Positions 4,072-18,751 of a DNA stretch of 29,440 nt are shown in pieces. Numbering within the stretch: the stretch's first letter is position 1; each line of letters opens with the position of its first letter. Below the pieces are notes generated by a model that was not told the origin of the DNA, did not search any database, and worked only from the letters and a program-made list of their open reading frames with translations. Both the position numbers and the translations under genes were made by a program. This DNA comes from a virus. Location of the stretch: positions 1-29,440 of IMG/VR virus record IMGVR_UViG_3300025655_000195; one strand, written 5' to 3'.

Positions 4072-4869
4072 ATGCGTTGGAAGTCGACATACTTTGAAAT
4101 ACAAGACCTTATTATTCAATTTGCTAATGCTTTTGATAGTATAGTTATTGGTAGATATAATAAGAATAGAGAGCAAAAAGATAGGATTTTTGTAAGATAT
4201 CTATACGCTCCTAAACAGCGCGTTCTTTATGATATAGTCAATAAAGCAAAAACAATTACTTTACCGGTAGTTGCTATCAATGTAGCAGGTATTTCTAGAG
4301 ATAATGATAGGGTTTTTAACAAGTTACCTGATGTTAACGGTTTCTATTATAGTAATGACCAGTATTCAAACAAATATAATGCTCCTACCCCAGTAAATAT
4401 TACAGTTAATTTTTCCGTTATAACAAGATATCAATTAGATATGGATCAAATCTTATCTAATTTTATACCTTATAACAACCCTTATATTATTATAAGCTGG
4501 CCAGTTCCAACAGGCTTAGGTGCATTATCTGAAATGCAAGAAATAAGAAGTGAAGTACTTTGGGATGGTAATATAAGTATGTCTTACCCAACCGAGTTAC
4601 AAGCTTCAGATAAAGCACGAGTTACCGCTGATACAACATTCACTATTAAAGGGTGGATATTTCCTGCAGCTCAAAATAACGTTAGTAATATTTATAGAGT
4701 TGATGCTAATTTCTATGCTGTTAGTGGTACTGAAAATACGGGTACGGTGCTTACATTAGATAATTACCCAACATTGAGAACTCAGTTGTCAGGATTATCA
4801 GCAATAACCGAAACAGTTACAGTTTCTGCTTCAGAGCAAGAAATTGAATCATTTATATTTTCACAATAA
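4072..4869 (+). CDS. 15: Tail sheath stabiliser, gp15-like
   Basis: 265 residues, close to T4 gp15 (272). gp15 forms the hexameric terminator ring at the head-proximal end of the contractile tail and joins it to the neck. Family hallmarks seen here: an N-terminal helix leading to F-D-S-I-V-I-G-R-Y, then V-R-Y-L-Y-A-P-K-Q-R-V-L (family: I-x-Y-G-P-K-E-K-V), a T-L-P-V-V-A-I-N-V-A-G-I-S-R-D strand (family: L-P-R-M-S-F-E-I), a Y-N-A-P-T-P-V-N-I strand, Q-I-L-x-x-F-I-P-Y-x-x-P, and T-F-T-I-K-G-W-I-F-P near residue 200. The start is fixed by the ATAAATA element. Its stop overlaps the next start (TAATG), so it heads the adhesin-protease operon. Confidence 0.8.
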   Translation: MRWKSTYFEIQDLIIQFANAFDSIVIGRYNKNREQKDRIFVRYLYAPKQRVLYDIVNKAKTITLPVVAINVAGISRDNDRVFNKLPDVNGFYYSNDQYSNKYNAPTPVNITVNFSVITRYQLDMDQILSNFIPYNNPYIIISWPVPTGLGALSEMQEIRSEVLWDGNISMSYPTELQASDKARVTADTTFTIKGWIFPAAQNNVSNIYRVDANFYAVSGTENTGTVLTLDNYPTLRTQLSGLSAITETVTVSASEQEIESFIFSQ

Positions 4870-7800
4870 TGAAGAGATTTGGACAAAAACTTTTAATTAA
4901 TAATAATCAAATTAACAAACTGATTTACAGTGAGTATGAAAAATCGTTTGTTTTTAAAATACCTTTTACTAGGGGCGGCGTAGGTAATAGCTTAGGGAAA
5001 GCTTCGACTTATCAGGTTTATTTGAGCAGCTCTAACCCATCTTCATTTATCCCCAACTCTCTCTCAACGGTTAATTTAAGTAGTGTAACTTATTACTCTG
5101 ATATTCCATCATTATCTTCTACTTACCCTGCATTTAGTGCTTATAATGCTTTAGATTTAGGTTGTGATGTATTTTTTGATTACACGTCAAATACAGTACA
5201 AGTGGGTTTAGGAGCTCTATCTGGTATTGCAACAGGGGAATTTAAGTTTTTGATTACTAGCCCCGGAGGTTATAATGTATTTCCTTCAGTTAATAGTGAA
5301 TATCCTTTTTATATTCAATCTCTTAACACAACAAAAACACCAGAAAGGTCATCCCCAGCACCTACCGGTACTGCAACCAATACACCCACACCTACACAAA
5401 CACCAACTAATACAAATACAGCTACTAAAACAAGTACAAGTACAGTAACATCTACTGCTACTGTAGGTTCCTCACCTACACCCACCGCAACGGTTACATC
5501 AACCACCACTAATACCACAACATTAACACCAACACCTTCTCAAACTTTAACAAGAACACAAACAGGTACTCAAACTCAAACACCAACTAATACTTCTACT
5601 CAAACTCAAACCATCACTAATACAGCTACCCAAACCCCTTCACCATCTTATACACCTACACAAACTTCTTCACAAACACAGACACCTGAAGTTACCCATA
5701 CTAAAACACCATCTAGAACTAGCTCTATTACACCTACTACCAATGCATCAGAAACCGCTACTCGTACCCCTACTAACACTGCCACACCAACCGGTACACC
5801 AGATGTAACATCTACTAATACACCAACAACAAGTAGGACACCAACTAACACACATACATCAACAAGAACAAGTAGCAACAGCCCCACACCTACAAATACT
5901 ATTACTCGTACTAGTACAGGTTCATTAACTGAAGGGTTAATAATGTATTTGGACGCTGATAATAGTTCGTCCACCGGCACAGCTAATCAATGGACGGATT
6001 TAACTTCAAATACTAATAACGGTTCTCTAAGCGGTGATGTTTTTTATAATTCAGGTTCAACACCCTCTTCTATTAGAAACTTTACTTTTGATCAGGGAAG
6101 TAGTATTGATATTAGCAGCAGCAATATAACATCATTAAGTACAAATGATTTTAGTTATATTATATGGGCTAAAATTTACAGTTTAAACAACGGTTCATCT
6201 GTACTTTTATCTAACTTTAATAATACCGCAGGTGATTTTACTTTTGGTTTTTATAATAACTACTTTTCTTATTATAATCCTTCTTTAGGTTGGACACAAG
6301 ATACAAGCTTTACTCTTCAAACTGGTTATTGGTACCAATTTGCTTTAGTTAGATCTTCAGGTACTTCTAGACTTTATATAAATGGGGTAACTAATTTATC
6401 TACTACCGATACTTATGATTATAGTAGTAGTGTTAACCCTAAGTTGGGTAGCGTTGTTAATAGTACGGGTAATTTTGACGGACAAATGGCTATCGTTAAA
6501 GTCTATGAAAAGGCTTTAAGTACTGCTCAAGTATTACAAAGTTTTAATAACATAAAACATAGATTTTATTTACCTGAAGTAACTCAAACCCCTACCCAGA
6601 CTAGAACACCTACTAATACAGCAACTATTACCGTATCCATTTCACAAACACCTACCCAGACTCAAACACCTACCTTTGGGTCATCACCTACAGGTACGCC
6701 TACTCAAACAAAATCTATAACTTTATCAAAAACTTCTACAAGCACCCCTACAACAACACCTACCAATACACAAACTAATACAAGAAACTGGACCCATACC
6801 AGAACAGCAACCCAAACACCAACCAATACAAGAACATCAACTCAAACCAGATCAAGGACACCTACTAAAACACCAACCCAAACCCCTACTAATACAATAA
6901 CAGCAACAAATACTGTTACATCAGGTAATACTCCAACAGAAACAAGAACACAAACAAAAACACCAACTAACACCCCTTCACAAACTGCTACAATTTCTTA
7001 TACACCAACTAGGATGGCTACAACAGCTACACCTACTCAAACCCCAACACATACCTTTACAAGATCATACACCCCTACTGAGACAAAGACAAGAACTTCA
7101 ACTCAAGCTTCTTATTCTTGCTGTCATTTAACTATGCAAGTAGATGCTTCTAACATTTACAGTTATCCTGGTTCTGGTAATATATTTTGTGACGTAAGAA
7201 GAAATAATGATTTATACATTTGTGGTTCTCCTCAATATGTAACATATACAGGGCCATCAAATCATTTTTGTTTAAATGGGTCTACAGATTGTATGGTTTG
7301 TGGTTATCAATTAGCTAAAAATACTGCAATTCCTAGAACCGAAGCTGGTCCTATACAAAATAGATACCCTTATACTTTTATATTTTGGATTAGAGTTAGA
7401 TCAAACATAAGTTCTTCAGCATCTTCATATACAGTGCCTATAGTAACCGATTATAATAATCAAGCTAATGTTTGTTATTTCATGATGGGTGTTAGAGGCT
7501 CAGGAGACACTGTTAATGCAGGTAAATTAGACTTTTGGGAAAAAGACAATGACGGTAATGAAATTTTTGCTAGAACGAGTTTAACTTATAATGATAATAG
7601 CTGGCATCAAGTTGCTTTTGTAGCCGATTCATCAAAACTAAGAATTTATGTAGATGGTGCAATTAGAGCAATATCTGAAGCTAATAGACCTTCTGGTATT
7701 ATTACTAATGGTACACCAATGCAATGGTTTTCAGGTAATAACTCTAATTTAGATGCTGATATAGCTATTATTAAAACATATTCTGGTATAGCTTTAAGCC

Positions 7801-8882
7801 AAGGTAGTATAGTTTCAACTTACAACGTTTTACGCCCTAGATTTAGTTTAGGTCCTATTACCCCCACTCCTACTAATACAAGAACCACAACACAATCTAG
7901 AACAAGAACAAATACGCCAACTATTACACCTACAAATACTTCAACTTCTACCAACACACCAACAGCATCTGTTAGTCCTACAGTTACGCCTACAGTTACC
8001 AGGACTCCAAGTTCGACTGATACACCAGGTGTTACTGCTACTAGAACACCTACTAATACTAGAAGTAGAACCCAAACCCCTACCCAAACTAGAACAAATA
8101 GTCAATCACCCACCCCTACAAATACAAATACACAGACACCAACACAAACTTCATCTAATACACCAGGATTAACACCTACCCCTACTAATACAAGGACCGC
8201 ATCTCAGACACCAACTACCACACCTACCCCTACGCAATCACCAACAAGCACCTCAACTAAAACATCAACTAGAACCCCTTCACCCACTAATACCAGAAGT
8301 AGAACTCAAACACCAACGACAACTCAAACACCAACAACTACACCAACTAATACAGTAACAAATACCCAAACACCTTTACGTACATTTAATAATAGTTTAA
8401 CTGGTACCGGTTCATCTCCTCATCCAAGTGCTAATGGAGTTACTTTCCAATCATCTGCAGGAGATGTTTTTGAATTTGATACAGATTTAACTGGTGGACC
8501 TGCATTTGATACAATGTATGTTTACTTAGATAGTAGTATTAAATCTGTTGTTAGTTACTCTTATAACGGTTATACGGGGGATACCTTTAGAATACAATTT
8601 GCTCCTTCTTCTACTTGGTATTACGGTACGTTTAGAAATGGTAATATATACTTTACATCTCCTGCTGTAACACCTACCAGAACTAAAACTCAAACTAGAA
8701 CGGGTACACAAACACCCACACCAACGCCTACAACAACCGGTACACCTGCATCAACCCAAACTAGAACACCTTCTCGAACAAACACACAAACTAGATCACA
8801 GACCCCCACACAAACTAAAACCAAAACTAAAACTCCTACATCACATGCTAATCAGATTTATGTAAGATACTACGATGAGTAA
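4869..8882 (+). CDS. Giant Thr-rich adhesin with lectin-like domains
   Basis: 1337 residues. Order: a beta-rich N-terminal domain (1-153), probably the virion anchor; Thr-rich linker 1 (about 154-354); a LamG/concanavalin-like domain (355-565) with F-S-Y-I-I-W-A-K and S-G-T-S-R-L-Y-I-N-G-V strands; linker 2 (about 568-747); a second LamG-like domain (748-996) with W-H-Q-V-A-F-V-A-D and L-R-I-Y-V-D-G, starting with a Cys pair and holding a Cys cluster; linker 3 (about 998-1168); a small beta domain (1169-1267); linker 4 and a 13-residue tail. In the linkers nearly every second residue is Thr, alternating with Pro, Gln, Arg, Asn, Ser or Lys, like a mucin stalk. No signal peptide is seen. Probable host-binding fibre or decoration protein; the glycan target is unknown. 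It overlaps both neighbours and has no Shine-Dalgarno sequence. Confidence 0.75.
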   Translation: MKRFGQKLLINNNQINKLIYSEYEKSFVFKIPFTRGGVGNSLGKASTYQVYLSSSNPSSFIPNSLSTVNLSSVTYYSDIPSLSSTYPAFSAYNALDLGCDVFFDYTSNTVQVGLGALSGIATGEFKFLITSPGGYNVFPSVNSEYPFYIQSLNTTKTPERSSPAPTGTATNTPTPTQTPTNTNTATKTSTSTVTSTATVGSSPTPTATVTSTTTNTTTLTPTPSQTLTRTQTGTQTQTPTNTSTQTQTITNTATQTPSPSYTPTQTSSQTQTPEVTHTKTPSRTSSITPTTNASETATRTPTNTATPTGTPDVTSTNTPTTSRTPTNTHTSTRTSSNSPTPTNTITRTSTGSLTEGLIMYLDADNSSSTGTANQWTDLTSNTNNGSLSGDVFYNSGSTPSSIRNFTFDQGSSIDISSSNITSLSTNDFSYIIWAKIYSLNNGSSVLLSNFNNTAGDFTFGFYNNYFSYYNPSLGWTQDTSFTLQTGYWYQFALVRSSGTSRLYINGVTNLSTTDTYDYSSSVNPKLGSVVNSTGNFDGQMAIVKVYEKALSTAQVLQSFNNIKHRFYLPEVTQTPTQTRTPTNTATITVSISQTPTQTQTPTFGSSPTGTPTQTKSITLSKTSTSTPTTTPTNTQTNTRNWTHTRTATQTPTNTRTSTQTRSRTPTKTPTQTPTNTITATNTVTSGNTPTETRTQTKTPTNTPSQTATISYTPTRMATTATPTQTPTHTFTRSYTPTETKTRTSTQASYSCCHLTMQVDASNIYSYPGSGNIFCDVRRNNDLYICGSPQYVTYTGPSNHFCLNGSTDCMVCGYQLAKNTAIPRTEAGPIQNRYPYTFIFWIRVRSNISSSASSYTVPIVTDYNNQANVCYFMMGVRGSGDTVNAGKLDFWEKDNDGNEIFARTSLTYNDNSWHQVAFVADSSKLRIYVDGAIRAISEANRPSGIITNGTPMQWFSGNNSNLDADIAIIKTYSGIALSQGSIVSTYNVLRPRFSLGPITPTPTNTRTTTQSRTRTNTPTITPTNTSTSTNTPTASVSPTVTPTVTRTPSSTDTPGVTATRTPTNTRSRTQTPTQTRTNSQSPTPTNTNTQTPTQTSSNTPGLTPTPTNTRTASQTPTTTPTPTQSPTSTSTKTSTRTPSPTNTRSRTQTPTTTQTPTTTPTNTVTNTQTPLRTFNNSLTGTGSSPHPSANGVTFQSSAGDVFEFDTDLTGGPAFDTMYVYLDSSIKSVVSYSYNGYTGDTFRIQFAPSSTWYYGTFRNGNIYFTSPAVTPTRTKTQTRTGTQTPTPTPTTTGTPASTQTRTPSRTNTQTRSQTPTQTKTKTKTPTSHANQIYVRYYDE
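5328..5927 (+). repeat. Thr-rich linker 1 (period 2 residues)
   Basis: Low-complexity coding DNA rich in ACA, ACT and ACC triplets on a 6-nt beat, encoding alternating Thr-X. Synonymous codons are mixed, so the regularity is conserved at protein level rather than as a perfect DNA tandem repeat. Confidence 0.85.
6577..7108 (+). repeat. Thr-rich linker 2
   Basis: Same 6-nt/2-residue Thr-X pattern between the first and second lectin-like domains. It recurs in units such as T-P-T-N-T and T-R-T, with many Arg and Lys residues exposed between Thr residues. Confidence 0.85.
7858..8376 (+). repeat. Thr-rich linker 3
   Basis: Same Thr-X pattern between the second lectin-like domain and the small C-terminal beta domain, with repeated T-P-T-N-T-R and R-T-Q-T-P units. 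Synonymous codons are mixed. Confidence 0.85.
8670..8843 (+). repeat. Thr-rich linker 4
   Basis: Short Thr-X tract near the C-terminus, rich in Arg and Lys (T-R-T-K-T-Q-T-R; T-K-T-K-T-K), followed by a short non-repetitive tail. Confidence 0.85.
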
Positions 8883-10236
8883 TATTGATAATTTAACTAT
8901 AAAAGCAAATCAACTTTTTGATTCTAACGTCAACTGGAATGGTGTTGTTGTTTCAAAAAAAGAAGTTCAAGGTGTTGAAACCCAACAGCCTTGTTTAACT
9001 TTATTTGTTGAAAAGAAATTACCTTTAAGTGATATACCTCAAGAGGATTTATTTCCATCTTCAGTTGAAGTAGATGGTGTAACTTATGCAACTGATGTTG
9101 TAGAAGTACCTTCTTTATCGGCAACCGGGTGCTATACTTTACCAGATCCATCTACTCCTCAAAGTACCTGGCAAATGCCTGTAAGTGGTAGTAGAGTAGA
9201 ACATAGACCATTAGTAGGTGGTATATCTGTTGGTTCTGTACCTCCGGATGGCTGGGGAGGAAGTTCTGTTGATACCGGTACATTGGGTGGGTTAGCTGTT
9301 GATTTAGAAGATTACACTATTGTAGGTGTTAGTAACAATCACGTTTTAAGTAAAAATACTTTAGCTGGTGATTTAGGCGGAGCTTTTACTAACGATTTTG
9401 GTTTAACTTTTTGGACATATCTTTCAGTAAATGACACGACTTCTTCACCTGGTGATGACAGGTACCCGGTATATCAAAGATCTACTTATGATAAATTTAC
9501 AGTTACTCAATCATTAATGCAACCTTTAACTGTTGGTACTGTTAAAAAAGCTTACCCTTTTAAATCTTCTGGTAATAGAGTTGATGTTTGTTCATTTGCA
9601 TTATCTGGTACACATACTCTTAATTTATCGGGTTCATCTACTAACTGGCAGCAATATCAATTAGATATAAGTCAGCCTATGGATTGGGCTACTGATTCGG
9701 AAATAAATTCATTATTAACCTCCGAGTTAGGTGCTCCTGTATTTAGATCTGGTAGAACTGAGGGTCCTGTAGGTTGGCCTGGTAGTGATCCTTATGGGTT
9801 TACTTGTAGGTTAAGTGCTTTTAGTATTGGTGGAGTTAATGTTAGCTATGGTGGTAATATAGGAACGTTAGGTTTTGAAGATCAAATATTTTTTAGAGGT
9901 AATTCATCTAGTTTATCCCCATCTTCTGGTGGAGATTCTGGTTCATTTGTTTGTGCTTTGTTTAATTCATCAAACCCTGCATTGTCGGCATGGAAAGTTA
10001 TAGGTCTTAACTTTGCTGGTAATGGAGTTATAGGGGTTGCTAATAAAATAACAAATGTAGCTAATATGTTTAATTTATCTGCTTACAAAGGAGATGAAAT
10101 AGATATAGGTTATAAAGGTTATGATATGCAAGTAATTAGTAGTAGACAATCAGCATTAACTGCTATGATAGGTGGTAAAATGTATTGGCAAGCAGGTTCT
10201 ACTGGTTTTCCTGCAACTACTTCATTTGACCCTTAA
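8875..10236 (+). CDS. Chymotrypsin-fold serine protease (S1-like)
   Basis: 453 residues. The catalytic triad is readable: H156 in S-N-N-H-V-L-S, D237 in R-V-D-V-C-S-F-A-L, S355 in S-G-G-D-S-G-S-F. Surrounding motifs match the trypsin-like subfamily of bacterial and phage proteins I recall (Nal1-like): an N-terminal V-E-K-K-L-P-L strand, a G-V-x-Y-x-T-D-V-V-E strand, R-P-L-V-G-G-I-S-V-G, a T-G-T-L-G-G-L strand before the His, and R-S-G-R-T-x-G before the Ser domain. All key residues are present, so it should be active. No signal peptide is visible. Its ATG lies inside the end of the adhesin gene (8 bp overlap), suggesting coupled late expression and virion or assembly use. Specificity and substrate are unknown; adhesin maturation, release, or cleavage of host surface protein are possibilities. 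Confidence 0.85.
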   Translation: MSNIDNLTIKANQLFDSNVNWNGVVVSKKEVQGVETQQPCLTLFVEKKLPLSDIPQEDLFPSSVEVDGVTYATDVVEVPSLSATGCYTLPDPSTPQSTWQMPVSGSRVEHRPLVGGISVGSVPPDGWGGSSVDTGTLGGLAVDLEDYTIVGVSNNHVLSKNTLAGDLGGAFTNDFGLTFWTYLSVNDTTSSPGDDRYPVYQRSTYDKFTVTQSLMQPLTVGTVKKAYPFKSSGNRVDVCSFALSGTHTLNLSGSSTNWQQYQLDISQPMDWATDSEINSLLTSELGAPVFRSGRTEGPVGWPGSDPYGFTCRLSAFSIGGVNVSYGGNIGTLGFEDQIFFRGNSSSLSPSSGGDSGSFVCALFNSSNPALSAWKVIGLNFAGNGVIGVANKITNVANMFNLSAYKGDEIDIGYKGYDMQVISSRQSALTAMIGGKMYWQAGSTGFPATTSFDP

Positions 10237-10245
10237 CATATAAGC

Positions 10246-10252
10246 ATAAATA
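10246..10252 (+). promoter_or_regulatory. Late promoter, ATAAATA, fixes a GTG start
   Basis: ATAAATA ends 5 nt before GTG at 10258, the same spacing as before ATG in other late genes. This supports GTG as the true start of the second Thr-rich protein, for which no suitable upstream ATG exists. Confidence 0.6.
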
Positions 10253-10257
10253 TTATC

Positions 10258-10974
10258 GTGGCAGGTATACCTACATTTAGAGATTTAATAAGACAAGCTA
10301 ACGGTGGTCCTCAGAGAGCTTCTAATTGGGCTCAGGCCAATGTGCATGGTATACCAGCTGTAACTTGCAGCCCAACAGTTTGTAATACACCTTCTCCTAC
10401 GACAACTAGGACAAATTCACAAACTTATACCCCTACATATACGTTTTCAAGAACATCTACACAAACCGGTACAAGCACACCAACTCAGACAAGAACAAGA
10501 ACTGGTACACCATTAGTTACGCCTACCATAACATGTACTAATTCGAGTACCAGAACAAGAACCGGTACACAATGTGCTACCAACACTGCAACAAGATCTC
10601 AAACACCTACTATTACAAGAACAAGAACAGAGACACCAAGTGCAACACCTTTACCATCTGCTACTATTACTCAATCAGCTACATTCACTAGAACAAGATA
10701 TCAAACACCAACGCAAACCAGAACAAGAACACAAACACCTACACCAACATTAACAAAATCAATTTCACCAACTGTTAGCTATTATGCTACACCAACACCG
10801 ACAGGCACAAGAACAAAAACCCCTACTAATACAGTAACTAGAACTAATTCATCTACTCGACCTACATCTTGTATTACACCTTCAGTTACTAAATCACAAA
10901 CAAGAACAAGTACAATTACAAGAACAAGAACCAAGAGTATAACATTATCTAGGTCAAGTTCACAATCATGCTAA
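10258..10974 (+). CDS. Second Thr-rich mucin-like protein
   Basis: 238 residues from a GTG start set by the promoter spacing. Residues 1-41 form a non-repetitive N-terminal part (an amphipathic helix F-R-D-L-I-R-Q is visible) that could be the anchor. The rest is an alternating Thr-X tract, richer in Arg than the adhesin linkers (T-R-T-R-T). Six Cys residues punctuate the tract and the last residue is Cys, suggesting disulfide links. No folded lectin domain follows. It sits between the protease and portal genes and probably is a virion decoration or stalk. No homologue with known function is recognised. Confidence 0.7.
   Translation: MAGIPTFRDLIRQANGGPQRASNWAQANVHGIPAVTCSPTVCNTPSPTTTRTNSQTYTPTYTFSRTSTQTGTSTPTQTRTRTGTPLVTPTITCTNSSTRTRTGTQCATNTATRSQTPTITRTRTETPSATPLPSATITQSATFTRTRYQTPTQTRTRTQTPTPTLTKSISPTVSYYATPTPTGTRTKTPTNTVTRTNSSTRPTSCITPSVTKSQTRTSTITRTRTKSITLSRSSSQSC
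10378..10971 (+). repeat. Thr-rich tract of second mucin-like protein
   Basis: Coding low-complexity DNA with the same 6-nt Thr-X beat as the adhesin linkers, enriched for ACA-AGA (Thr-Arg) pairs. Confidence 0.8.
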
Positions 10975-10978
10975 TATA

Positions 10979-12754
10979 ATGGGTACAGGAAATAAAAATA
11001 CATTTGGACGTTCGTTAATGAAGTATGTACAAAGCAGACTTCCTTATCAGTCTTATCAAACTATCGAAACGTTAAATGACGTAAACCCTAAGTATAAGCT
11101 ATTTCAAGGCGAAGGTAGTCGTCGTGAAGACGCATTACAGCGTCAATCTATTTCATCATCCACACCTATTAATAATTCAGCTGTTGGTGATATCGCAATG
11201 GACAAGGGCTTTCAGGAGTTCATGTATGCGAATATTCAGCAAGATAAAGCAGCAAGAATTCGTGATTATAGAGTAATGGCAGCATTTGCTGAAGTTGGAG
11301 ATGCATTAGATGAAATTTGTGATGAGATTATAAACAAAGATGCTAACGGTGAGATTGTAAAATTAAAATTTTTACATAGAGAGTTTAAACCTAATGAACA
11401 AAAGCAATTAGAAGATGAATTTCAGAAGTTCATTAGTTACTTTGATTTAGAGCATAAAGGTTGGGAATATTTTAGACAATTACTTGTAGAGGGTGAAGTT
11501 TATTGGGAACATATTATTCATAAAGATCACCCAAAAGAAGGTATTTTAGGTACAGTACAAATTCCTACCGAACTCATCGATCCAATTTTTGGTAATATTC
11601 AAAATAGTATTGTTCAAGGTTATCTTTTAAGAAAACCTGTCTTTAATGAAGAGAACCCTACTAAGATTGAAGACATGCAACTCATTCCAATGGATAAAAA
11701 TCAGGTTACATATGTTAACTCTGGTATCTGGAATGATAATAAGACAATTAGATTACCTTACTTAGAGAATGCTAGAAGAGCTTATAGACAATTATCTCTC
11801 ATTGAAGATGCAATTGTTATATATAGATTAGTAAGAGCACCAGAGAAGTTAGTATTCAATGTAGATGTAGGTAATATGTCACCTCCTAAAGCAGAAGGGT
11901 ATCTAAGAAACCTACAGCAAAAATATTGGAGTAGACATACATATGATACTGATAGTAGTGGTCAGGTAATGAAATTTTCACCTCAGTCAATGCTTGATTC
12001 TTTTTGGTTTGCTAAGAGAGCAGGTAGTGAAGGTACAAGTGTTACAACATTAGCGGGTGGTCAGAATTTAGGAGAGTTAGAAGACTTAATGTACTTCATG
12101 AAGAAGTTATATAAGTCACTTAAAGTACCTGTAACTAGATTAAACCCTGAGCAATCATTTCAAGATGGTACTGATATATTAAGAGAAGAGCTTAAGTTTG
12201 CTCGTTTCATTATTCGTATGCAAATGCAGTTTGCTGCAGGATTAAAGAATGGCTTTATAACTCATCTTAAACTTAAGAAGATATGGGAGAAATATAATCT
12301 AAAAGAACTTAATTTAGATTTAGAGTTTAATGTACCTTCTAACTTCTTTGAAATGCGAGAGCAGCAAAAGCTTGAGCTTAAAGTTAATAACTGGTCAAGT
12401 TTAACTAATAGTGAGTTTGTTTCTAATACTTGGGCTCAGAAGAAGTACTTAGGTTGGTCTGATATTGAAGTTAAAGCTAATAGAGAATTTTTACGCAAGG
12501 ACAAAGAACTCACTTGGGAATTAGCTCAGATTGAAGCTAGTGGTCCTAATTGGAGAGAGGCTATTGCCTCTGGTGGAGCCGAAGGGGGAGAAGGAATGGA
12601 AGCCGGTGGTGGTGCAATACCCGCTGGTGGCGGTTCAGGCCTACCCCCTGATTTCGGTCCCCCACCAGAAGGAGGCGGCCCTGATGTAACTGGAGGCGAC
12701 GTTCCACCTGAAGGAGGCGCCGCTCCTGCCGCAGAACCAGCCCCGGTTCAATAA
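10979..12754 (+). CDS. 20: Portal protein, gp20-like
   Basis: 591 residues (T4 gp20 has 524). The dodecameric portal at the head vertex is the DNA channel and the site where the terminase and neck dock. The N-terminal third has the strongly conserved R-I-R-D-Y-R-V-M-A-A-F-A-E-V-G-D-A-L-D-E followed by I-C-D-E-I, and the middle has F-W-F-A-K-R-A-G-S-E-G-T-S-V and E-D-L-M-Y-F-M-K-K-L-Y-K-S-L-K-V-P, both portal hallmarks. The last 60 or so residues (from about 530) are a Gly/Pro/Ala-rich tail that is absent in T4 and locally GC-rich. No clear late motif stands before the ATG, so it may be read from the promoter at 10246. Confidence 0.93.
   Translation: MGTGNKNTFGRSLMKYVQSRLPYQSYQTIETLNDVNPKYKLFQGEGSRREDALQRQSISSSTPINNSAVGDIAMDKGFQEFMYANIQQDKAARIRDYRVMAAFAEVGDALDEICDEIINKDANGEIVKLKFLHREFKPNEQKQLEDEFQKFISYFDLEHKGWEYFRQLLVEGEVYWEHIIHKDHPKEGILGTVQIPTELIDPIFGNIQNSIVQGYLLRKPVFNEENPTKIEDMQLIPMDKNQVTYVNSGIWNDNKTIRLPYLENARRAYRQLSLIEDAIVIYRLVRAPEKLVFNVDVGNMSPPKAEGYLRNLQQKYWSRHTYDTDSSGQVMKFSPQSMLDSFWFAKRAGSEGTSVTTLAGGQNLGELEDLMYFMKKLYKSLKVPVTRLNPEQSFQDGTDILREELKFARFIIRMQMQFAAGLKNGFITHLKLKKIWEKYNLKELNLDLEFNVPSNFFEMREQQKLELKVNNWSSLTNSEFVSNTWAQKKYLGWSDIEVKANREFLRKDKELTWELAQIEASGPNWREAIASGGAEGGEGMEAGGGAIPAGGGSGLPPDFGPPPEGGGPDVTGGDVPPEGGAAPAAEPAPVQ
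12734..12749 (+). other. Weak hairpin at portal gene 3' end
   Basis: GAACC (12734-12738) and GGTTC (12745-12749) can pair around a 6-nt loop, just before the next late promoter. There is no T-run after it, so a terminator role is doubtful. Confidence 0.2.
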
Positions 12755-12757
12755 ATA
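12751..12757 (+). promoter_or_regulatory. Late promoter, ATAAATA
   Basis: ATAAATA overlaps the portal stop codon and ends 5 nt before the ATG at 12763. The predicted start point falls on the ATG. Confidence 0.6.
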
Positions 12758-12762
12758 GATAT

Positions 12763-12987
12763 ATGAGCGATTGTAATTACTCCTCTTGTTGCGGTGGCGA
12801 ATCATTCAGTAGCCAAAAACCTAAAAAAGAATCAACTACTTATCCTAACAACTGCGGTGCTGCTTGTTGTTGTGGTACCACATGTACAACTTGTACGACT
12901 TGTACGACTTGCACTACTTGTAGTGCTGCTACATCTTGCCCTAGTACTGCAGGAAGAGCAACATACAGTTGCTGCTGTTGCTGCTAA
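12763..12987 (+). CDS. Small cysteine-rich protein with TTC repeats
   Basis: 74 residues, 18 of them Cys (24%). Features: an N-terminal S-S-C-C-G-G, a C-C-C triplet, five consecutive T-T-C units, and a C-terminal run of five Cys. It lacks the hydrophobic core of a normal globular domain. It could bind metal like a metallothionein or form disulfide cross-links on the virion. The late promoter directly before the ATG, and the position between portal and fibre-type genes, favour a structural role. An overlapping ORF in another frame (12794-12991) is a shadow. No known family is recognised. Confidence 0.7.
   Translation: MSDCNYSSCCGGESFSSQKPKKESTTYPNNCGAACCCGTTCTTCTTCTTCTTCSAATSCPSTAGRATYSCCCCC
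12883..12921 (+). repeat. 9-nt tandem repeat encoding Cys-Thr-Thr
   Basis: Four copies of a 9-nt unit close to TGTACGACT (variants TGTACAACT and TGCACTACT) plus a final TGT. Whole-codon units mean copy-number change would keep the frame. Confidence 0.85.
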
Positions 12988-12994
12988 ATAAATA
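12988..12994 (+). promoter_or_regulatory. Late promoter, ATAAATA
   Basis: ATAAATA immediately after the stop of the Cys-rich gene, ending 5 nt before the ATG at 13000. Confidence 0.6.
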
Positions 12995-12999
12995 TTAGT

Positions 13000-13281
13000 A
13001 TGTCAAGAGAAAGTATAAGCACATTAAAAGGTTACTTCGAAACTGGAGATGTTCCTACAGCTGAACAGTTTGGTAGCCTTATTGATTCTACATACAATTC
13101 AACATCAGGTATAGAAACATTAAGTACTGGTTATTCTAACCTTAGTGTTATTTCTTTAAGTGCTGACGAGTTTATTATTAATGATTTAAGAGGTTCTACT
13201 CAATCATTAGAAGTAAAAGCACCTGATGATAGTACCATTACATTAACAATTACTAATGGTATTATTACTAATATATCTTGA
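13000..13281 (+). CDS. Small virion protein with YFETGD-PT-QF motif
   Basis: 93 residues. The N-terminus carries L-K-G-Y-F-E-T-G-D-V-P-T-A-E-Q-F-G-S-L-I-D-S, a motif common at the N-termini of phage tail-fibre and structural proteins (YFxTGDxPTxxQFxDLIDS). The rest is beta-rich with a Ser/Thr-rich middle. Such motifs usually begin long fibre proteins, so a 93-residue version may be a small decoration protein or a reduced fibre. The late promoter and location support a structural role. Confidence 0.6.
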   Translation: MSRESISTLKGYFETGDVPTAEQFGSLIDSTYNSTSGIETLSTGYSNLSVISLSADEFIINDLRGSTQSLEVKAPDDSTITLTITNGIITNIS

Positions 13282-13284
13282 TTT

Positions 13285-13292
13285 TTTAAATA
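13285..13292 (+). promoter_or_regulatory. Late promoter-like TTTAAATA
   Basis: TTTAAATA 13 nt before ATG 13306. A second copy at 13299-13306 lies 8 nt before ATG 13315. The second gives the usual spacing and points to 13315 as the start; which one is used cannot be decided from sequence. Confidence 0.35.
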
Positions 13293-13293
13293 C

Positions 13294-13328
13294 AGCCATT
13301 TAAATATGCTCGTTATGTTTAAATGGCT
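13294..13328 (+). repeat. Perfect 11-bp inverted repeat at gene start
   Basis: AGCCATTTAAA (13294-13304) and TTTAAATGGCT (13318-13328) pair perfectly around a 13-nt loop containing both candidate ATG codons. It could be an RNA hairpin that presents or hides the start codon, or a DNA operator over the promoter copy at 13299. No T-run follows, so it is not a typical terminator. Confidence 0.65.
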
Positions 13329-14064
13329 ATCTCGTTTTTTCAGAAGAAATAAAAGCAATAGTAGGTATGTTTCATGTTGTACTCCTTTACCTACTCCTTC
13401 TGCTGCTCCTGTTTATTGCATAGAACCTCAAAATGTTCTAAAATCTAGCTGTTCTACTGCTAATGTTTGCTGTGGTAGCAACACATGTAATGGTTATAAA
13501 GTATCACCTTATAGTAAAAACTTTACTAAGCCTGAAAAACATAATCATGCTTATCGTCCTATTCAAACCACCGTTTGCTGTACTAATTGCGTACAGCCTA
13601 TAGCTCAATGCGATCCAAGCCCGGTATGTACACCTCCAACACCGACAACGTGCTATAGTACACCTTTACCAACTTGTGGTCAATCTTGTCAAATTGATTT
13701 TTATGAAACAGTTAAGATGACAAGTCCAACTTGTTGCACACCAGTAGTAACTCCGACTTATCAGCCATGTGCATCATGTGTACCTCAAACTGTTGAAGCA
13801 GCTGCACAAGAACCTATTTTACCTCAAGAAGGTTATATTTTTGTAATGAATGGTTATGGTGTAAATGTTGAAGTTAATAACGAAAAGGTAGAAGCTTTTA
13901 TTGATATGGGTATTGATGTTAACATAACACCTGGACAAAAGGTATTGTTACATCACAGAAAAGGTAAATATGATAAAATGATAGGAAAAGCAATTAGCGA
14001 AACTGGTACAGAAAGAAAGGGGAATGCAGAGGAAATCTTAGTACAAGAATTGTTAGATGTCTAA
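13315..14064 (+). CDS. Cysteine/proline-rich structural protein
   Basis: 249 residues from ATG 13315, or 252 from ATG 13306. The N-terminus is short and basic (F-K-W-L-S-R-F-F-R-R). A Cys/Pro/Thr-rich region follows with about 25 Cys, many as CC or CxxC pairs, through about residue 155. The last 80 residues form a Cys-free domain, probably beta-rich (Y-I-F-V-M-N-G-Y-G-V-N-V; D-V-N-I-T-P-G-Q-K-V-L-L-H-H). Cross-linked decoration protein or metal binder are options; no family is recognised. The 8-bp overlap with the next gene suggests coupling. Like the smaller Cys-rich neighbour, it is unusual for a phage that assembles in the reducing cytoplasm. Confidence 0.7.
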   Translation: MFKWLSRFFRRNKSNSRYVSCCTPLPTPSAAPVYCIEPQNVLKSSCSTANVCCGSNTCNGYKVSPYSKNFTKPEKHNHAYRPIQTTVCCTNCVQPIAQCDPSPVCTPPTPTTCYSTPLPTCGQSCQIDFYETVKMTSPTCCTPVVTPTYQPCASCVPQTVEAAAQEPILPQEGYIFVMNGYGVNVEVNNEKVEAFIDMGIDVNITPGQKVLLHHRKGKYDKMIGKAISETGTERKGNAEEILVQELLDV

Positions 14065-17790: not shown

Positions 17791-18192
17791 ATGGATGCAG
17801 ATAATCACATGTTATTAGAAAAATATTTTTCTACTCATAATAGTCCTTATGAAAAGGAAACAAAAACATCCAAACATGTAAAATTTGCATCACCTCAAAC
17901 TTTTCAATCAGATCTACTTAAGATCTACAGTGAGTCAGGAACCTCAAATCTACCTTCAATTTATAGATTAGTTCATGAAAACTTTAAAGATGTGCAAATG
18001 TCTTTGAGTCATTCAGAAGGCTATAAGCATCTATACTGTGCGGCTATAGGTGACTATGAAATTGAAGGTAGTCAGGTTCATTTCTTACACCCAAGACCTA
18101 AAGTCTCTTTATATGAAAATACCTCTCTAGATAAGTGGGCTTCACTAGCTATCTTTAAGAGAGGTACTTCTACTGCTTTATTTAGAATCTAG
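17791..18192 (+). CDS. Hypothetical protein
   Basis: 133 residues, soluble, with mixed helix and strand; a helical N-terminal third and a strand-rich C-terminal half (L-Y-C-A-A-I-G-D-Y-E-I). I do not recognise it. The late promoter suggests late expression. Its last 11 bp overlap the end of the convergent holin gene, and a long hairpin (18120-18166) lies near its 3' end. Confidence 0.6.
   Translation: MDADNHMLLEKYFSTHNSPYEKETKTSKHVKFASPQTFQSDLLKIYSESGTSNLPSIYRLVHENFKDVQMSLSHSEGYKHLYCAAIGDYEIEGSQVHFLHPRPKVSLYENTSLDKWASLAIFKRGTSTALFRI
18120..18166 (+). terminator. Long bulged hairpin between convergent genes
   Basis: Stem of 9 bp (TACCTCTCT with AGAGAGGTA), then 5 bp (AGATA with TATCT), then 4 bp (AGTG with CACT) around a GGCTT loop, with two 3-nt bulges (TTA, AGC) on the 3' side: 18 bp in all. 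It sits 26 nt before the stop of the plus-strand gene and just beyond the stop of the minus-strand holin gene, so it could act as a bidirectional terminator. Confidence 0.5.
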
Positions 18193-18751
18193 GGCCAATA
18201 TTTGGTGTTTCAGGTCTTCTAGTTGCTGTTGCAACAGCTTCTCTGAATTGAGCTTTATTTACTTTCTTTTCCTCTAGTTGTTGAGGAGTCGTTCCTGAAG
18301 TTACTAAAGCCTTTGTTTCTGCTAATTGAGGTACTATTTTCTCAGCACTTCTACCAACAACATAGCCTCCTAGACCAATTGTCATTAAATTAAACAACTT
18401 ATCCGGTAGGTCTAACGCAGGAAATATACTTTCACCACCAAATACTGTTGAAATTTGATTAACTAAGGGAGCAATAAGATAATTGTTAGCAATAACACAT
18501 ATGATTATCCACATCAAAGCTGGTCTCCAATTACGTTGAAACCAGTGACCTTGGACTTCAGCTAATACTATATCTTTTTGCGCTTGTAGAACGTTATTTT
18601 GATTCTCTATGATTTTAGCTTCAAAATCTTTTTGAATCTTTTCTATTTCAGCCTGAACACGCATTTGATCCTCTTTACGAGTAACAAATTTCGTTATAAC
18701 ATTTGATATCGGAGCGGCTAACCCTGATATGATTGAACTTATTCCGACCAT
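18182..18751 (-). CDS. Holin, GTA_holin_3TM-like
   Basis: 189 residues. The order matches the three-TM holin family (GTA_holin_3TM): a hydrophobic or amphipathic N-terminus (G-I-S-S-I-I-S-G-L-A-A-P), a charged helical segment (about 25-65), the conserved H-W-F-Q-R-N-W-R-P-A-L-M-W followed by a TM segment (about 77-98), then a second hydrophobic stretch ending G-L-G-G-Y-V-V-G-R-S-A-E-K, a family signature. Holins form inner-membrane lesions that time lysis. No endolysin gene is recognisable in this window. It is one of only two minus-strand genes and has its own late-type element. Confidence 0.75.
   Translation of the reverse strand: MVGISSIISGLAAPISNVITKFVTRKEDQMRVQAEIEKIQKDFEAKIIENQNNVLQAQKDIVLAEVQGHWFQRNWRPALMWIIICVIANNYLIAPLVNQISTVFGGESIFPALDLPDKLFNLMTIGLGGYVVGRSAEKIVPQLAETKALVTSGTTPQQLEEKKVNKAQFREAVATATRRPETPNIGPRF

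Follow-up and report, generated by a model that had tools for sequence, protein, structure and literature searches.

A conserved C-terminal tail accompanies NAL1-type serine proteases in uncultured viruses and may serve as a strand tag

The virus record IMGVR_UViG_3300025655_000195 of IMG/VR, analysed here over its whole length of 29,440 b (the window), derives from an uncultured T4-like virus and encodes a 1337-residue adhesin-like protein directly ahead of a serine protease that resembles the plant protein NAL1 (NARROW LEAF 1). The main feature of this gene pair, missing from an earlier note on the region, lies in the last ten residues (1328-1337) of the large protein. A tail of this kind, about ten residues long and with the consensus N-[TQ]-[ILV]-[YF]-[VI]-x-[YIF], is found on the protein encoded just upstream of the protease (here called the carrier), and the association between tail and protease is strong. 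We propose, as a proposition on which we are evenly divided, that the two genes form a cassette in which the carrier bears a short tag strand and the NAL1-type protease binds it.

A scan with the window protease led to seven related loci, in all seven of which the upstream gene overlaps that of the protease by 8 bp, and alike tails were found on bodies that differ: SHANQIYVRYYDE in the window, SHSNQIYIRYYND in L010, DHGNQLYVRYE in L011 and SHQNQIYVSYE in L012. Profile searches then brought in 59 and later 110 relatives (80 kept), the lowest with 26% identity to the window protease and some on contigs of more than 300 kb. Among 83 distinct proteases, 80 had an upstream open reading frame (ORF), and a regular expression for the tail (regex) matched within the last 20 residues of 64 of these 80, versus 41 of 1566 other distinct ORFs of at least 60 residues, the latter being the proper comparison because the regex was derived from the tails themselves. 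The upstream ORFs were picked by a script that took the wrong one in at least L123 and L173, whose truly upstream genes are two of the 41, and near-miss tails could be seen by eye in L167, L168 and L169. A stricter motif matched 31 of 1029 distinct ORFs, and every one of the 31 adjoins a protease.

The same linkage was met from the opposite direction, by searching for the tail. A back-translated tail pattern run over the viral collection found 16 stretches, 14 of them ending an ORF that is each time followed by a protease (cut off by the contig end at 29 codons in L017 and 49 in L013); the matches in L018 and L027 lie inside frames of 15-18 residues. Two NT-type patterns found five and nine stretches, of which four end no real ORF and ten do, with a protease next in 10 of 10. 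Over all tail-first scans there were 30 matches, 24 of them ORF-terminal, and a protease came next in 24 of 24, counts that are not independent, several contigs being near-identical and many loci being near relatives or overlapping. Conservation of the tail covers about eight residues and has a strand-like pattern, and in 62 of the 64 positives 0-5 residues remain between the end of this stretch and the C-terminus. Its codons vary synonymously, with all four Thr codons in use, and selection is therefore on the protein; a nucleotide-level explanation of the tail was rejected on these grounds. In L045 (5417-5962) the carrier tail is doubled in tandem (NTVFVKYDIIPGDAPGTNTVFVKYDVY).

The bodies that bear the tail have been swapped. 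After trimming of the final 20 residues and filtering of low-complexity sequence, 79 upstream proteins, some of them cut by contig ends, fell into 28 clusters without mutual BLAST similarity, and tail-bearing members occur in 23. In the close clade (18 loci) the tail is present in 16, and the Thr-X adhesin of the window together with a second Thr-rich gene in just four (window, L008, L010 and L181). The other 14 loci have in its place proteins without BLAST similarity to the adhesin (13 of 157-213 residues and one of 399), and BLAST detected no homologue of the second Thr-rich gene there (L035 ends too early to tell). The earlier note had read adhesin, protease and Thr-rich gene as one late module; the tightly linked adhesin-protease pair survives from that reading, and the three-gene unit, with its expected co-occurrence of protease and Thr-rich genes, does not. 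The tail-bearing L011 carrier matches phrog_677, a baseplate wedge or tail-fibre connector (E 1.1e-18). Pfam gave no domain at E<=0.01 in eight carriers from outside the window, and NCBIfam nothing above its cut-offs in six proteins.

The genomic setting of the pair is similarly changeable. At 13 of the 18 close-clade loci, gp15 and gp20 enclose carrier and protease on the two sides (with about 40-55% identity in the more distant loci; L011 differs), and this is therefore the usual order of the clade, not the insertion between gp15 and gp20 that had been supposed. Of 37 records, many of them fragments, 13 have a T4-type portal. In the three close-clade records among these 13 (G001, G044 and G045) no more than about 1.2 kb separates portal and protease, against about 27-31 kb in G012, G014 and G022 (in G012 the protease is at 43.1 kb and the portal at 11.6 kb). 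From this variable distance it follows that carrier and protease move together and that the gp15-gp20 site is peculiar to the close clade.

Some proteases are themselves tailed, and record G017 has proteases in series. Its locus L176 (G017:7001-27000, - strand) contains two series of NAL1-type proteases, six or more in total, and in several of these proteins there are duplicated or additional domains. The first series runs from proteases ending in GTTYMRVIEN, GTTYMNL and GTVYQHIPNL to a tail-less protease, and the second from a 920-residue non-protease (GTTYFYIS) through a protease ending in SYYKFIPNL, tail-like by eye and failing the regex, to another tail-less protease. Proteases with a protease next carry the tail in four of six cases by regex (a fifth by eye), compared with 3 of 73 other proteases, where the regex overlaps those proteases' own LWQVG end; related loci enter this comparison (Fisher test) as if they were independent. 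The L162 array is a clear exception to the rule that a protease followed by a protease is tailed.

That the enzyme belongs with NAL1 was supported by both predicted structure and sequence. The predicted window protease aligns as a single chain with rice NAL1 (8pmi_A) over 318 residues (Z 29.1, root-mean-square deviation 3.7, 17% identity), and a profile of the protease family finds NAL1 from sequence (E 6.1e-8). After NAL1, the structure lists give bacterial chymotrypsin-fold proteases and DegP/HtrA, which leave the N-terminal domain uncovered; among viral models the top match is an uncharacterised protein of Virus NIOZ-UU157 (E 3.8e-28). Pfam NAL1_N scores the window protease at 15.8 bits, below the gathering score of 27, and matches 6 of the 28 members of alignment A3 at E<=0.01 (best 6.2e-7). 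The 'protease' family phrog_20754 matches residues 13-163 of the window protease, and also L059 (2e-23), L063 (1.4e-18), L045 (1.7e-18) and L082 (2.2e-25). Catalytic residues are conserved, and the His-Asp-Ser triad that the earlier note had called intact was confirmed: the probable triad of His156, Asp237 and Ser355 (GDSG) is invariant in the nine proteases of alignment A2, and in A3 His and Ser are present in 28 of 28 and Asp in 27 of 28 (Glu in L079), from which sequences activity is predicted. Six residues before the Ser, a position that we take to be that of chymotrypsin Asp189, the Asp of trypsin's Arg/Lys specificity, there is Pro in 60 of 78 proteases, Ala in nine, other residues in nine and Asp in none, the position being set by spacing rather than structure, and 5 of the 83 proteases having been dropped (GDSG missing or outside the matched range). 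There is, therefore, no sign of trypsin-type specificity. Near the C-terminus, a YWQxG-type motif is found in 73 of the 80 proteases with an upstream ORF; L082 and L083 have neither tail nor YWQxG. The proteases of L019, L023, L026 and L028 have an extra stretch of about 200 residues between the Asp and Ser regions, and those of L050, L054, L060, L112 and L131 have long C-terminal extensions with GWFFEVGI or TGxFIAxGG-type ends, perhaps another tag.

Structural models suggest that the tag likely binds the protease physically, one model being positive and one negative. Among 22 listed carrier-protease pairs that are in frame, 18 were read through their stops (stops as Gly), and the L050 pair was modelled with AlphaFold from 37 sequences. 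In that model the tail forms a strand (13-18), residues 11-20 having a mean predicted local distance difference test score (pLDDT) of 89, between poorly ordered flanks (52 and 38). Four of 11 rows aligning the model with NAL1 reach model residues 10-15, paired with NAL1 46-51, and NAL1 46-58 (NSAAYFLWPTSNL) resembles the tails by eye. The YWQxG stretch scores 91-92 in the docked model (431-444) and 66-71 in the undocked model of the window pair (431-460), these being two different proteins. There are hints from this better order on docking, together with the absence of YWQxG from the tail-less L082 and L083, that the tail pairs near YWQxG; contrary to this, L032 has YWQxG and no tail.

Several observations weigh against the cassette. 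At least 11 of the 80 upstream ORFs are tail-less (L062, L068, L037, in which the tail region is out of frame, L032, L130, L134, L146, L082 and L083, and also the protein ahead of the first protease of the L058 array and one step of the L162 array), and L032 and L181 lack the tail next to a close protease. The positive L050 model is a read-through chain in which the tail is artificially joined to the protease. The window pair, built by the same read-through device, left the tail undocked (residues 1-20 at pLDDT 39 and 32, no strand), and its NAL1 rows begin at model residues 18-20; it is a weak test because just two residues separate the tail from the first helix. In the L050 model, 7 of the 11 NAL1 rows begin only at residues 29-34, including rows from long constructs (8pmi_B, 8pn2_A, 8has_D), and the residue offsets of the NAL1 alignments differ (32 to 37). 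Finally, we infer physical binding, activity and substrate, and for every member also the location on the virion.

Under the cassette proposal, the carrier would probably be displayed on the virion and its last ten or so residues would add a beta-strand to the protease, which would thereby be mounted, as a head made in trans, on the end of a fibre or adhesin. Successive proteases would each be tagged for the next, giving a chain. The carrier body could be swapped because only the tag would be needed, and the exchangeable bodies would include the LamG stalk of the window, small proteins, a fibre-connector-like protein and Gly-rich stalks. Once mounted, the protease would cleave proteins of the host surface or of the phage. 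The fuller form of the idea, which we put forward tentatively and well short of even confidence, is that an interchangeable strand tag of about ten residues lets any surface protein take up a NAL1-type protease in trans through strand complementation, that tagged proteases can string into multi-enzyme chains, that plant NAL1 has this strand in cis at the N-terminus, and that this is a previously undescribed way to arm virions.

A rather unlikely, but serious, alternative is that the tail is a processing signal within which the protease cleaves, probably after the conserved Tyr, Phe or Trp, maturing the carrier during assembly. The aromatic position is Y in 37, F in 26 and W in one of the 64 regex-positive tails (the regex itself requires an aromatic), the conserved catalytic residues and the exclusive linkage of tail and protease fit, and the lack of Asp at the Asp189 place makes a non-basic P1 plausible. 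The strand-like conservation over some eight residues near the C-terminus nevertheless exceeds what a simple cleavage site would need, and the array proteases are tailed too; the docked L050 model is silent on whether the strand occupies the active site. It is improbable that the partner of the tail is some third, common virion protein (e.g., of the neck or baseplate), with the protease linked through gene order only: the carriers do resemble virion surface proteins and, in the close clade, most pairs have gp15 and gp20 on either side, yet distant viruses still have tail and protease together at a distance of tens of kb from the portal, and among proteases it is those followed by a protease that the tail accompanies. 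The earlier note had favoured an enzyme that trims Arg/Lys-rich Thr stalks, or cuts host protein, and so turns an attached virion into a released one. The adhesin-like LamG domains and intact triad are in keeping with that account, which we consider very improbable, given that the trypsin-type S1 residue is missing in 78 of 78 proteases and that the protease is retained with carriers devoid of Thr stalks; the stalks supposed to be dense in Arg and Lys have only a slight excess (46 of 597 residues, 7.7%, versus 41 of 727, 5.6%, in the globular parts, with limits set by eye), and no evidence for the release of attached virions was found. Least credible of all is that the tail codons are conserved merely as start signals of the overlapping protease gene, as the 8-bp overlap of the close clade might suggest, since they vary synonymously and the tail is still present in pairs with non-overlapping genes (gaps up to +14).

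Plant NAL1 (PDB 8pmi, 7y77, 8has) is like the viral protease in its fold, its NAL1_N-type N-terminal domain and its GDSG and HV motifs, and in one model (the 4 of 11 rows above) its N-terminal segment aligns near the place where the viral tail docks; unlike it, the viral protease has a separate tail-bearing partner gene and the additional YWQxG motif. The entry for phrog_20754 is silent on a tail-bearing partner, and L082, its best match of the five scanned, is without tail and YWQxG. Sortase/LPXTG and exosortase/PEP-CTERM systems are C-terminal sorting signals with a dedicated protease, in which the motif is followed by a transmembrane helix and a basic C-terminus. They share with the viral system a short C-terminal motif on many unrelated proteins that is coupled to one enzyme, but the viral tails have neither transmembrane helix nor basic end in the few residues after the motif, and the enzyme is a chymotrypsin-fold Ser protease with an adjacent partner gene in a viral setting. 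Chaperone-usher pili are built by donor-strand complementation, which is reminiscent of the present proposal in that an end strand would complete the fold of the next protein and permit chains; the viral strand differs in being C-terminal rather than N-terminal, with a protease as the acceptor, and its complementation is inferred only.

The pair was not described in the literature searched, outside which lay most subscription journals and the NAL1 structure papers. A trypsin-like serine protease is reported in the T4-like rhizobial phages phiM9 and P10VF (PMC10783043), like the window a case of such a protease in a T4-like phage. It was rejected as a member of the same family, neither genome matching the family profile or phrog_20754; a 256-residue frame of P10VF matches Pfam Trypsin (E 8.6e-5) and none in phiM9 does. 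Translated searches (tblastn) with the carrier N-terminal domain and the proteases of the window, L022, L059, L063, L045 and L082 had no match in 50,697 records of cultured phages. Pattern-limited scans of cellular genomes gave no relative among 40 stretches and one among 30. That sole cellular-contig relative (L182) is on a 3.7-kb contig of a metagenome-assembled genome, CALPIE020000194.1, binned as Bifidobacterium breve and perhaps a misplaced viral contig.

In the window (Table 1), the gene order is helicase, gp15, carrier, protease (453 residues), second Thr-rich protein and gp20, and ORFs, PF16724 and PF07230 agree with the layout described earlier, including the 8-bp overlap of carrier and protease (8875-8882). 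Also upheld were the lectin-like domains on stalks, PF13385 matching the carrier in two stretches (85.4 bits against a gathering cut-off of 27.6) with putative glycan binding; a match to Laminin_G_2 (PF02210) at residues 885-938 is under its cut-off. Of the mucin-like character named in the earlier note, the feature observed is Thr content. Laminin G3 domains of this LamG type are likewise found on virion proteins, the tail fibres of jumbo phages (PMC7824862), and the words trypsin and chymotrypsin were not found in that text. The carrier's distinct N-terminal domain, a further feature noted earlier, is conserved in L010 (58% identity) and L181 (55%), the remainder of these proteins differing; its homology with the small carriers of relatives was unsupported (hhalign probability 0.2). 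The L181 adhesin relative (7218-13445, - strand) has 2075 residues and Gly-rich domains and is without the tail, the protease reading intact. The window portal matched 2490 phage records, every one at less than 60% identity and at 29-33% among the 40 matches listed. Elsewhere, positions 1003-1413 weakly match a phage GroES-type co-chaperonin (phrog_3188, E 3e-4), and 18182-18751 (- strand) holds a gene of the holin family (phrog_3427, E 3e-30) that is oriented against its neighbours.

Table 1. Coordinates of the carrier-protease pair and its flanking genes in the window.
Feature	Position	Strand	Evidence
gp15-type tail sheath stabiliser (flank)	4072..4869	+	PF16724 E 1.1e-20; phrog_227 E 5.4e-18
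Carrier, 1337 residues: N-terminal domain, Thr-X stalks, two LamG-type domains, third small domain, C-terminal tail	4869..8882	+	
Carrier N-terminal domain, residues 1-153	4869..5327	+	Alignment A8 (156 residues of the window)
LamG-type (concanavalin-like) domain 1, residues 414-555	6108..6533	+	PF13385
LamG-type domain 2, about residues 753-998	7125..7862	+	PF13385, second stretch; limits by eye
Conserved C-terminal tail NQIYVRYYDE, residues 1328-1337	8850..8879	+	
NAL1-fold serine protease, 453 residues	8875..10236	+	phrog_20754 E 1e-17; NAL1 Z 29.1; Foldseek (predicted structure against NAL1) E 7.1e-15
Catalytic His156 codon (SNNHV)	9340..9342	+	28/28 rows of alignment A3
Probable catalytic Asp237 codon	9583..9585	+	27/28 rows of A3 (Glu in L079)
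Catalytic Ser355 codon (GGDSGS)	9937..9939	+	28/28 rows of A3
YWQAG motif near protease C-terminus, candidate tail partner	10183..10197	+	YWQxG-type motif in relatives
Second Thr-rich protein, 238 residues, GTG start, lineage-specific	10258..10974	+	BLAST homologues in 4/18 close-clade loci, including the window
gp20-type portal (flank)	10979..12754	+	PF07230 E 2.2e-106

Should the tail prove to be a cleavage tag, it would belong to a maturation system without description in the literature searched. If it is a docking tag, it would act as a modular plug with which large uncultured phages fit a protease to changeable surface proteins, and it may offer a means of attaching an enzyme to any protein, as well as a clue to the role of the N-terminal segment of plant NAL1.

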